A stretch of DNA of 64,000 nt from a virus. The translations under genes were made by a program, and so were the position numbers. Positions 11,888 through 55,759 of this stretch are shown here, piece by piece. Below the pieces are notes generated by a model that was not told where the DNA came from, searched no databases, and saw only the letters and a program-made list of their open reading frames with translations. Location of the stretch: positions 1 to 64,000 of the IMG/VR virus record IMGVR_UViG_3300047546_002006; one strand, written 5' to 3'. Each line of letters starts with the position of its first letter. Positions within the stretch are counted from its first letter, which is position 1.

Positions 11888-12289
11888 TCAGAATGGAATT
11901 TCTTCCAGTGTGGGCACAGCTGGTGCTGATGCCATAGCCACTGGTATTGCAGAAGCAGGAGGCAGATATTGCGGTGCGGCACCAATGATAGCCCTCACAT
12001 TCGTGAGGTTGATCTGTGGGTAACGCAATGCAATAAGCTGACCATCCTTGATGTAATGGCTGCGGATCGTATTGATACGAACCTCCCACTGCGTGAGGAT
12101 AAGTTCTTGTCCTACGACCAGGGTGCCATTACGAAATGCTGTAAGCAAACCATTGGCATTATTGAATTTGATGCGGCAACCATTACCAGACTTGTCGTTG
12201 ACAGCCATGGTAACTGCAAGGAACTCGCTACCTTCATGGGTAGCAACTTCCAAGTAGCAGATGTTGCCGACAATCGCTTGAGTAAACAT
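11888..12289 (-). CDS. ssb: single-stranded DNA-binding protein
   Basis: Coats single-stranded DNA during phage replication. The 133-residue protein has an OB-fold pattern: GNICYLEVATHEGSEFLAVT, then MAVNDKS, a central strand block, QLIALRYPQINLTNVRAII, and a Pro/Ala linker. It ends in TLEEIPF, the acidic tip ending in PF by which bacterial SSBs bind partner proteins. I chose the ATG at 12289 because the longer frame upstream runs through hairpins. Its position within a run of tiny unknown genes is unusual. Confidence 0.8.
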   Translation of the reverse strand: MFTQAIVGNICYLEVATHEGSEFLAVTMAVNDKSGNGCRIKFNNANGLLTAFRNGTLVVGQELILTQWEVRINTIRSHYIKDGQLIALRYPQINLTNVRAIIGAAPQYLPPASAIPVAMASAPAVPTLEEIPF

Positions 12290-49076: not shown

Positions 49077-49736
49077 ATGTCGGATTTTTCGTCTGCCATT
49101 AACATCATTCGTAAATACGAAGGATTTAACGAAAAGGCATACCCAGATCCGAACACAGGAGGAGACCCATATACCATCGGGTATGGAAGCCAATTCTATC
49201 CCGATGGTTCTCCTGTTAAAAAGGGACAATGCTGCAGTAAACAAAAGGCACTGGAGTATTTGTTCCATGAGGTCAATGTAATTGAAACTCAGCTTTTGAA
49301 ATTGAATTTGGGGTTAGATGATTGTATGCGTCAAGCCCTAATTTCTTTTATTCACTCGATTGGCTGGGAGCCTTTTTTGTACAGCCATGTTATTGATGCT
49401 ATTGAGCACGAAGATTTTTGCGGCGCCACAGAAGAAATGGGCAGATGGATTTTCAATGAAGACCATAAGGTTGTCGGTGGATTACTTGATCGCCGTAGGG
49501 AAGAAATTAGTTTATTCCTCCAGGAAGTTGACGCCAATCCCTGGTCCTCAACAGAAGTTTTGTTGACAGCATTTCGCAATTACACAGCAGCACCACACGA
49601 AGTACGCGCTATCAGAGGTTTAGAAGAAAGCATCAGTCCTTATGTCCTATCAAAATTTGCCAATGATTTTTGTATTGATGACAATCCATGGTCAGATTTT
49701 AGTACTGATGACGCAGATCTAGTATTTGGCGGCTAG
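49077..49736 (+). CDS. GH24 lysozyme, probable endolysin
   Basis: A T4-type lysozyme, 219 residues, that hydrolyses peptidoglycan at the end of infection. The catalytic triad E-x8-D-x8-T is visible as YEGFNEKAYPDPNTGGDPYT (E15, D24, T33), followed by IGYGSQF. The middle helical part (RQALISFIHSIGWEPFLYS) and GGLLDRRREE match the family. The start at 49077 is the ATG after a TTACTTCC leader. No signal peptide. The nblA-like gene is 24 bases further on. Confidence 0.9.
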   Translation: MSDFSSAINIIRKYEGFNEKAYPDPNTGGDPYTIGYGSQFYPDGSPVKKGQCCSKQKALEYLFHEVNVIETQLLKLNLGLDDCMRQALISFIHSIGWEPFLYSHVIDAIEHEDFCGATEEMGRWIFNEDHKVVGGLLDRRREEISLFLQEVDANPWSSTEVLLTAFRNYTAAPHEVRAIRGLEESISPYVLSKFANDFCIDDNPWSDFSTDDADLVFGG

Positions 49737-49760: not shown

Positions 49761-50063
49761 ATGCAGAGCGGGATGGAGAGGTCAGTTGAGCCACGGGAAT
49801 TTGAACTCCCCCTAGAATTGCAGTTCTCAATGCGTAAAGCAGAACTTGCTGCGCAAGAAATGACATGGGAGGAGTTGTACTGTGCACTTCTCAATCTGTA
49901 CCACCAGCGCCTTATGGAATGGTACGCTATTAAATCCTTGATGGAAGATGAGAATATTTCTATTGATTTTGATATTCCAACTGAGATTGAGTTAGCAGAA
50001 CTCGCCGCCGCCTGCATTGACGACGACGAGGATGAAAACGAAGACGATCTTCAGCCTTTTTGA
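49761..50063 (+). CDS. nblA: NblA-like phycobilisome degradation protein
   Basis: NblA proteins direct the host's phycobilisomes to proteolysis by linking phycobiliproteins to the Clp protease. Residues about 12-63 follow the NblA pattern of two long helices: EFELPLELQFSMRKAELAAQ, EMTWEELYCALLNLYHQRLM, then EWYAIKSLMED. Typical NblA is about 60 residues; this one has 100, because of an N-terminal extension and an acidic C-terminal tail (ending DDDEDENEDDLQPF). The ATG at 49773 is an alternative start. Carrying nblA is known from freshwater cyanophages; it could free amino acids or alter host light use. Confidence 0.8.
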   Translation: MQSGMERSVEPREFELPLELQFSMRKAELAAQEMTWEELYCALLNLYHQRLMEWYAIKSLMEDENISIDFDIPTEIELAELAAACIDDDEDENEDDLQPF

Positions 50064-50341
50064 ATTTCGTCTAACTGAATCAAGCGATCAATGTACCACT
50101 GCGCTTTTTTAAGGGATTCAGTGCCCCCCTTCAAGCGTTCACGCCATACATATTTTTGAATGTTGCCTTTCAGGTAACCACGATACTCATCTGGTGTTAA
50201 TGAAGCCTCAATGGCCTCAATACACTCAATACTCCCACTATCTGTGTAGTGGGTAGGATGATTTACATTATCGCCCTGGAGCACAGGAGCCTCTTCTTTG
50301 ACAGCCCATGGTACTGGGCATACGCCACCAGGGCAATCCAT
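50051..50341 (-). CDS. DUF3310 (gp1.7-type) protein
   Basis: A 96-residue protein with the DUF3310 layout: VNHPTHYTDSGSIECIEAIE, then DEYRGYLKGNIQKYVWRERL and ESLKKAQWYIDRLI. The family includes T7 gp1.7, a nucleotide kinase. Start taken at the ATG after the upstream stop; a GTG a few codons earlier is possible. Its 3' end overlaps the end of the nblA-like gene on the other strand by 13 nt. Confidence 0.8.
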   Translation of the reverse strand: MDCPGGVCPVPWAVKEEAPVLQGDNVNHPTHYTDSGSIECIEAIEASLTPDEYRGYLKGNIQKYVWRERLKGGTESLKKAQWYIDRLIQLDEIQKG

Positions 50342-50358
50342 TACTTCAGGCACTGGAT

Positions 50359-50706
50359 CTACCGGAGCAAACCACGTCGTTTTGCCGACAACACTCGTTC
50401 CTTCTCCGAGGGCGCCTCCAGTTCCAGTACTAAGCTCTTCGGTCGTGGCGAGGAAGCTGGGTACTGCTCCAGTGCTTCCTCCATCGATGGGATGTAACCC
50501 GTCATTCCGGGCCGTTGCCCCTCGAGATTCAATGGATTCCGATCCAACCCTTGTTCGCATGCAACTAAACCGCGATTATACATATCGTACAGCGGCACAT
50601 CATTTTCTGCGTTATCAAGGGGTGCGCCAAAATCTTCTTCTGTCAAACAACGACATTTAACTTCGTCCTGAACAAAAGCATCTAAAAATCCAGCTGCAGA
50701 ATGCAT
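50359..50706 (-). CDS. hypothetical protein
   Basis: A 115-residue protein, MHSAAGFLDAFVQDEVKCRC, then LYDMYNRGLVACEQGLDRNP, GYIPSMEEALEQYP and a basic tail. It precedes the DUF3310 gene on the same strand. Unknown function; the middle reads as a helical, soluble protein. Confidence 0.6.
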   Translation of the reverse strand: MHSAAGFLDAFVQDEVKCRCLTEEDFGAPLDNAENDVPLYDMYNRGLVACEQGLDRNPLNLEGQRPGMTGYIPSMEEALEQYPASSPRPKSLVLELEAPSEKERVLSAKRRGLLR

Positions 50707-53980: not shown

Positions 53981-55759
53981 GTGGCCAATAGAAAAATTAC
54001 CGAATTTTCGTCTATCGATAGTGCTTCTATCGACGACGCAGATGTATTAACTCTTGTCCACGTTTTTGAAGTAGATCCCACCCTAAGAAATAAAAAAATT
54101 ACTTTTACTGAATTCAAGGAATACTTGAATCAGTATTACATCAGCCCTAGCGGCACTGCTACATTTAGCGGTAATGTTGTAATTCAAAGTGGATTAACGG
54201 TTAGCGGAACAGCTCTTTTGGGGGCCTTAACTGCTACGGGTGCGGCAACCTTTAGTGGCGTTACTGTTCAAAATGATATTACTATTACCGGAACAACAAG
54301 CGGTACTATTGCCAGTTTTGCGACAGGTATTTTTACCAATACAGTTTCGGGCAATACGTTAACCGGACAAACTGTAAATGCTACAACAGGTAATTTTCAG
54401 TCAGTTACCAGTGTCACTGGTGTTTTTACAGGAACTCTGTCAGGTGCAACAGTAACTGGCACTGCAGCCCAATTCACTACTATTACAGGACAAAGCATTT
54501 CCGGAGCAAACGTTACTGGTGTATCGGGTGTATTTACAACCCAGCTCTCTGGGGCGACAGTCACTGGCAACACAGGATTATTTACAACGGTAACAGGACA
54601 AACACTTAGCGGTGCTACCGGTGTTTTTCAAAATTTAACAGCTAATTCACAAGCAATACAAAACAATTTAACAGTCACTGGAACCATTGTTGCTAATGGA
54701 TCAATTACAACAACAGGAAATCTAAACACCAGTGGTAATCTTGCCGTTGCTGGCTCAGGTGTTTTTGGATCTGGGATTCAAGTTACCGGAACCATTAGCG
54801 GCACAACTGTTACAGGTGCAACGGGTTCTTTTACTAATATCACCGGTGTTAACGGTACTTTCACTACACAAGTATCGGGTGCAACAGTAACAGGTAATAC
54901 AGGACAATTTAGTAATATTACTGGTGTTTCGGGAGTATTTACAAGTTATTTATCAGGTGCAACGGTTACAGGAACAACCGGTCAATTTACAACTGTTACT
55001 GGTATTAGTGGTGCATTTACATCGTTAACTGGTACTACCATTACTGGAACCACGGCTCAATTTACAACAATAACTGGTATCAGTGGTGCGTTCACCGTAG
55101 TCACAGGTGTCACGGTAACTGGAACAACAGCTAATTTTGTCTCAGGTGTATTTACGACTCAGCTTTCTGGGGCCACAATCACAGGTAATATTATCCGTGG
55201 TACCAGTGGAATTTTTGATACATTAACAGCGGTTAACCAAACATTCTCCGGTGGCTTAACTTTTTCTGGTGATACTAATACTATTGGCAATGCACAGTTT
55301 CGATCTGGCGTAACAGTCACCGGAACTTTAAGTGGCACTACCATTACAGGAACAACAGTACAAGCCACAACTGGCACATTTGTTTCTTTAACTGGAACAA
55401 CAACAACTGGTGTAACTGCAACTTTTGTTACTGGAATATTTACCACAGTTGTATCGGGTGCAACTGTTACTGGCACGACTGCTCAGTTTATTACTGTTAC
55501 AGGTGCATCAGGCGCATTTACTTCTCTTACGGGCACCACGGTTACTGGCACAACTGCTAATTTTGCAAGTGGTAACTTCAGTACAAGTGTTTCCGGTGCG
55601 ACAGTCACAGGGAATACCGGTTTATTTACAAACATCACTGGCAGCACAATAACAATCACTACACCTTCTGGCGCAACGCCAGCGGTCATCTGTTCAGGTG
55701 TAGTGTCCGGTGGAACTTCTGGATTTGTTATCCAAGGACCTTTGACGATTTTGCCTTGA
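53981..55759 (+). CDS. repetitive tail fibre 1
   Basis: A 592-residue fibre from a GTG start. Residues 1-50 (MANRKITEFSSIDSASIDDA) are the type of N-terminal head that docks many cyanophage fibres to the tail. The rest is repeats of 15-20 residues with core SGATVTGNTGLFTTVTG, strongly Thr/Gly/Val-rich, which would form a beta-helix shaft. The C-terminus is a short tip (SGFVIQGPLTILP). Likely a trimeric receptor-binding or linker fibre. Confidence 0.75.
   Translation: MANRKITEFSSIDSASIDDADVLTLVHVFEVDPTLRNKKITFTEFKEYLNQYYISPSGTATFSGNVVIQSGLTVSGTALLGALTATGAATFSGVTVQNDITITGTTSGTIASFATGIFTNTVSGNTLTGQTVNATTGNFQSVTSVTGVFTGTLSGATVTGTAAQFTTITGQSISGANVTGVSGVFTTQLSGATVTGNTGLFTTVTGQTLSGATGVFQNLTANSQAIQNNLTVTGTIVANGSITTTGNLNTSGNLAVAGSGVFGSGIQVTGTISGTTVTGATGSFTNITGVNGTFTTQVSGATVTGNTGQFSNITGVSGVFTSYLSGATVTGTTGQFTTVTGISGAFTSLTGTTITGTTAQFTTITGISGAFTVVTGVTVTGTTANFVSGVFTTQLSGATITGNIIRGTSGIFDTLTAVNQTFSGGLTFSGDTNTIGNAQFRSGVTVTGTLSGTTITGTTVQATTGTFVSLTGTTTTGVTATFVTGIFTTVVSGATVTGTTAQFITVTGASGAFTSLTGTTVTGTTANFASGNFSTSVSGATVTGNTGLFTNITGSTITITTPSGATPAVICSGVVSGGTSGFVIQGPLTILP

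Follow-up and report, generated by a model that had tools for sequence, protein, structure and literature searches.

Cyanobacterial NblA contacts ClpC near its N terminus and phycobiliproteins, or the phycobilisome, near its C terminus (PMC4103541; PMC7760959). NblA homologues are also encoded by cyanophages, and in that of Ma-LMM01 every highly conserved NblA residue is reportedly retained (PMC4103541). The acidic C terminus of the single-stranded DNA-binding protein (SSB-Ct) is bound in pockets that hold its terminal Phe carboxylate together with the acidic residues (PMC5872125). We describe here a phage protein in which an NblA-type core is joined to an acidic C-terminal extension that ends like SSB.

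The DNA analysed (the window, 64,000 nucleotides) comes from a virus record of 79,218 bases (ends 1 and 79218), most of which is collinear with Synechococcus phage S-EIV1 (KJ410740). The record is without a region of ~6 kb that holds DNA polymerase A and SSB in S-EIV1, and therefore it is probably not the complete genome. As the host of S-EIV1 is Synechococcus sp. PCCC-A2c, the host of this virus is likely a member of the Cyanobiaceae.

The NblA-like gene and its core

The features of the locus are as follows, with coordinates of the window.

49077..49736, + strand: endolysin (phage lysozyme), directly upstream of the NblA-like gene; PF00959, E 2.6e-19; present in 174/174 loci
49761..50063, + strand: coding sequence of the NblA-like protein; 100 aa as listed, 96 aa from the conserved start at 49773
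49800..49949, + strand: NblA-type helical hairpin, residues 14-63; PF04485, hhalign and AlphaFold2 (helices 18-32 and 36-63; mean pLDDT 85-90 over residues 21-70)
49962..50021, + strand: conserved extension IDFDIPTEIELAELAAAC with a predicted third helix (residues 75-87); relatives and AlphaFold2; absent from cellular NblA
50019..50048, + strand: acidic run DDDEDENEDD, residues 87-96, predicted to be disordered; sequence, relatives and model
50049..50060, + strand: C-terminal tip LQPF; -PF in common with the SSB of the lineage, P and F kept through synonymous change
50051..50560, - strand: gene for a DUF3310 protein, convergent; shares 13 bp with the 3' end of the NblA-like gene

The open reading frame at 49761-50063 begins with ATG and runs for 100 codons with zero internal stops. 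Its relatives share the start MERSVEP, which makes translation from the inner ATG at 49773 more likely, and the protein is thus probably 96 aa long; the initial annotation had set 100 residues against about 60. At either length the protein differs from cellular NblA, which has ~60 aa and no acidic tail. A chance reading frame is ruled out by the synonymous-only change at its end and by its retention in 98 distinct proteins. A frameshift origin of the tail, which the initial annotation had named as what might undo it, is likewise ruled out, because only a few of the 98 distinct sequences do not conserve the tail.

The gene does lie directly behind the endolysin, as had been noted, and this order is kept in every locus of a relative with enough flank (174/174). 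It is the last gene before the convergent DUF3310 gene and lies on the same strand as the virion genes; given this place at the end of a rightward virion-lysis operon, we infer that it is expressed late. The earlier picture of an unusual extension, on a gene at the end of such an operon, is supported. A scan for promoters and terminators around the gene returned sites no more frequent than in shuffles. One scan for the family gave 539 confirmed stretches, and several hundred viral contigs carry a member, relatives of S-EIV1 included; the S-EIV1 counterpart, AHV82245.1, is annotated as hypothetical only. Elsewhere in the window, a 592-aa ORF with a GTG start (53981-55759, + strand) contains many degenerate VTGTT/SGATVTG repeats and is possibly a tail fibre.

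On the evidence of PF04485 matches, profile-profile comparison and predicted helices, the core of the protein is homologous to NblA, remotely. The PF04485 search that had been proposed places the single protein below the gathering cut-off of 25 bits (20.9 bits, E 5e-4, residues 15-61 aligned to positions 1-47 of the 50 in the profile), but all 13 of the 13 family members scanned have a match (best E 1e-5). L210, a cellular protein related to the family, scores 26.5 bits, and the best NblA per genome in 29 other cyanobacterial genomes mostly scores 69-93 bits. With hhalign, the 98 distinct phage relatives matched 27 cellular NblA sequences at E 4.8e-6 over 54 ungapped columns, the best E among 20 column-shuffled versions being 0.013. 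The AlphaFold2 model (mean pLDDT 74.6, pTM 0.48) has helices at residues 18-32, 36-63 and 75-87 and a disordered end, and a two-helix hairpin extends over the full NblA profile. The NblA core that the initial annotation had called clear is real as homology, but weak and remote at the score of the single protein. A PHROGs search with the protein gave no match, tblastn with a short NblA query of approximate sequence found no phage NblA and carries no weight, and a scan of genome contigs with the phage family gave no confirmed match; a PDB fold search returned weak helical matches only, NblA not among them, although the small size of the hairpin makes this search uninformative.

By alignment, the C-terminal phycobiliprotein-binding motif is gone from the phage protein, which keeps most of the N-terminal motif region. 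On the ClpC side, L7, L9, E10, Q12, F13 and R16 are largely kept and Q11 is replaced by L (LSLEQQF in cellular NblA, LPLxLQF in the phage family); the LxxLYxQ stretch is also recognisable. Within the C-terminal motif, L51 and K53 reportedly matter, according to work of Bienert et al. in 2006. Of the 27 cellular sequences, 95% have K or R at position 53, whereas Q, A and E are the commonest residues there in 94 phage sequences, and W56-G57 of cellular NblA is replaced by N-I/V, leaving no recognisable motif across the L51, K53 and W56-G57 region. The loss of this motif favours the earlier suggestion of a tail that alters partner choice, with the qualification that the informative feature is the SSB-like -PF end, not acidity alone. 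The accompanying idea of an NblA that feeds replication from phycobilisomes is not supported as stated.

Matches to PF04485 (E <= 0.01) were found in 0/11 and 7/300 Cyanobiaceae genomes and in 29 of 30 other sampled cyanobacterial genomes, the remaining one of which may itself belong to the Cyanobiaceae; the profile of the phage family matched 1/300 Cyanobiaceae genomes. These counts do not support a recent acquisition of a host nblA. The sole match to the family profile among the 300 genomes (L248 5402-7060, on Cyanobiaceae contig G117:C41) is a 102-aa relative ending EEDPFLS. Its gene follows, after 13 bp, that of a 152-aa protein whose tail reads DVPTxxxL...acidic...ETF and which itself has matches in 3 other genomes. 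A PD-(D/E)XK/Cas4-like nuclease is also nearby, trigger factor-like and rhomboid-like neighbours look chromosomal, and the 102-aa protein appears as a cellular relative beside DNA-metabolism genes. In four genomes of the host family, probably marine Synechococcus, a short NblA-like gene (MTAPTSLSLESNFELERIKRSIDAMDD...; L244-L247) that is sub-threshold in Pfam lies directly beside a ribonucleotide reductase-like gene, and two phage-like contigs in Cyanobiaceae genomes (L241 and L243) have short, divergent NblA-like genes in the neighbourhood of DNA metabolism genes.

The extension and its Pro-Phe end

All 98 distinct relatives have the two-helix NblA-type core, and nearly all have the third helix (DFDIPTxxEL) and the acidic tail; the extension module as a whole, DFDIPTxxELxxLA followed by the acidic run, is strongly conserved. 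The cellular NblA sequences that we fetched all end within ~15 aa of helix 2, and none has an acidic tail. The acidic extension described in the initial annotation is therefore real and conserved, but it starts with a conserved third helix and ends in DDLQPF, not in Asp/Glu. All but a few of the 98 sequences end with the acidic run followed by Pro and a hydrophobic residue. A tree of the core separates two clades, with the window and S-EIV1 in clade A; this tree rests on few columns, which leaves its deeper branching uncertain. In clade A the end is -PF in 42 of 44 dereplicated sequences and -VF in the other 2. In clade B, some early branches end in -PF and most others are extended (PFFG, PFFI, or PIFG as in QPIFG), and thus a free terminal Phe is not found throughout the family. 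Across 93 distinct DNA sequences ending -PF, Pro is encoded by 4 codons, Phe by 2 and the stop by 3; since codons and stops vary, the residues and not the bases are conserved, and on this codon evidence selection acts on the Pro-Phe end.

The window's protein ends DENEDDLQPF, with acidic residues before a C-terminal Pro-Phe as in SSB-Ct. Among 128 annotated S-EIV1 proteins, only the ssDNA-binding protein and the NblA-like protein end in -PF (2/128). SSB orthologues were present in 15 of 28 sampled contigs, and every one ends in -PF (15/15); the three that were tested score above the SSB cut-off of Pfam. Where clade A contigs have both genes, both products end in -PF (11/11), whereas in clade B contigs with SSB (n=4) only SSB does. 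Strict covariation of the two ends is ruled out by clade B, and the residues that much of this clade adds (PFFG) argue against a strict -PF rule. On a contig encoding an identical NblA-like protein, SSB ends ELDDQPF and the NblA-like protein EDDLQPF; chromosomal SSB of Cyanobium and marine Synechococcus ends in DEDVPF, DDDVPF, SEEVPF, EEEVPF or DDDEIPF. The NblA-like protein has no Pfam match to the OB-fold ssDNA-binding domain (PF00436), and its model is all-helical. Elsewhere in the window's record, -PF ends occur in a probably spurious 51-codon frame and in one small protein.

11888..12289, - strand: 133-aa small protein with a linker and C-terminal TLEEIPF; the only other plausible -PF gene in the record

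Most relatives of this protein keep EEIPF, and it is possibly a second OB-fold or SSB-like protein; a Pfam search gave no match, and its structure model, all-beta and of low confidence (pLDDT 42), is not usable. A distant S-EIV1 counterpart ends LEPVAF, and only a 63-aa piece of it is annotated in S-EIV1. By these comparisons, the -PF end of the window's clade is, within the genome, common essentially only to SSB-type proteins.

Possible roles of the NblA-like protein

One explanation for these observations, to which we give a probability of about 0.38, is that the protein is a hairpin derived from NblA whose tip resembles the SSB C terminus and docks on proteins that bind SSB. With an acidic tail that finishes in Pro-Phe, like the phage's SSB, in place of the pigment-binding end, the protein may direct proteins that handle DNA, either instead of phycobilisomes or in addition to them. 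It would be made late, alongside lysis and virion genes, and would dimerise through the hairpin; its acidic -PF tips would then dock into pockets that normally bind the SSB C terminus, on phage or host polymerase or primase, nucleases or recombination factors, in competition with SSB. Were the hairpin still able to bind ClpC, such targets could instead be delivered to the Clp protease by what would be an adaptor with a swapped bait. This last version, in which an NblA/ClpC-type hairpin with an SSB-Ct mimic hands SSB-interacting repair and replication proteins of host or phage to ClpC for destruction, is a subset of SSB-Ct docking with ClpC still bound, and we regard it as unlikely. Several points count against docking in general: much of clade B continues past Pro-Phe while SSB in the same genomes ends in -PF, which argues that a free terminal Phe is not needed in that clade; at the window's tip, one more residue than in DDDIPF stands between the hydrophobic residue and Pro; and acidic low-complexity tails are common.

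The main rival is a divergent but ordinary phage NblA, a bridge between phycobiliproteins and ClpC that would strip phycobilisomes late in infection; the extension would tune partner choice or stability, and the likeness to SSB would be coincidental. We consider this reading only slightly less probable than docking. The core is homologous, other cyanophages carry nblA genes that are expressed, and expression in S. elongatus of nblA genes from marine viral metagenomes leads to phycobilin loss (PMC9602691). With PF04485 matches in only 7/300 genomes of the host family, a phage-supplied adaptor could also be useful. An ordinary role fits poorly, however, with the absent C-terminal phycobiliprotein-binding motif, with a strongly conserved extension that cellular NblA does not have, and with the -PF end in common with SSB; an environmental cyanophage survey lists no nblA in the S-EIV1 group (PMC5332604), and we found no activity data for the family. 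The tail might alternatively tether the phage's own replication or packaging machinery, in the manner of T7 gp4, whose acidic C-terminal tails bind basic patches on gp5 (PMC12593628), with the hairpin as a dimerisation module only and no role for ClpC or phycobilisomes. The tip in common with SSB and the S-EIV1 family A polymerase gene close to the SSB gene would agree with such a tether, but it is improbable given that a late-operon place by the endolysin in every relative fits a replication role less well and that a tether would not account for the retention of the NblA N-terminal motif region. The invariant place behind the endolysin, near virion genes, would suit a late structural, scaffolding or lysis-timing helper in which the charged tail would serve only solubility or virion packing; as this would leave both the NblA likeness and the conservation of Pro-Phe across synonymous codon changes unexplained, we consider it very unlikely.

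If the tip works like that of SSB, phages would have turned a light-harvesting degradation adaptor on DNA metabolism, and the protein would be a retargeted protease adaptor, or an SSB decoy, of a new kind. Even as a plain NblA, it would be one that the S-EIV1 lineage supplies to a host family mostly without recognisable nblA.

Comparison with described systems

A literature search found no paper that joins NblA, phage and such a C-terminal extension, the S-EIV1 genome paper and Nadel et al. 2019 being outside its scope. The phage protein and cyanobacterial NblA (PF04485; structure 1OJH) have in common a two-helix hairpin, ungapped over 47-54 residues, and the patterns E-L-x-L-E-x-Q-F/R and L-x-x-L-Y-x-Q; the phage protein differs in falling below the Pfam cut-off, in its replaced K53 and W56-G57 region, and in ~35 extra residues that comprise the third helix, the acidic run and -PF. 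The NblA proteins of Ma-LMM01, MaMV-DC, PaV-LD and divergent marine cyanophages are likewise NblA homologues on cyanophages, and for none of these did we find a report of an acidic -PF extension; the proteins of the two phage-like Cyanobiaceae contigs also end without one. The C terminus of bacterial and phage SSB (DDDIPF) is likewise a disordered acidic run ending in Pro-Phe-COOH, but the NblA-like protein is without the OB fold or any ssDNA-binding domain, has an additional residue ahead of Pro in the window, and in much of clade B carries further residues after Pro-Phe. T7 gp4 is likewise a second phage protein besides SSB with an acidic C-terminal interaction tail, although gp4 is a helicase-primase and, unlike the protein described here, has no NblA-type hairpin.
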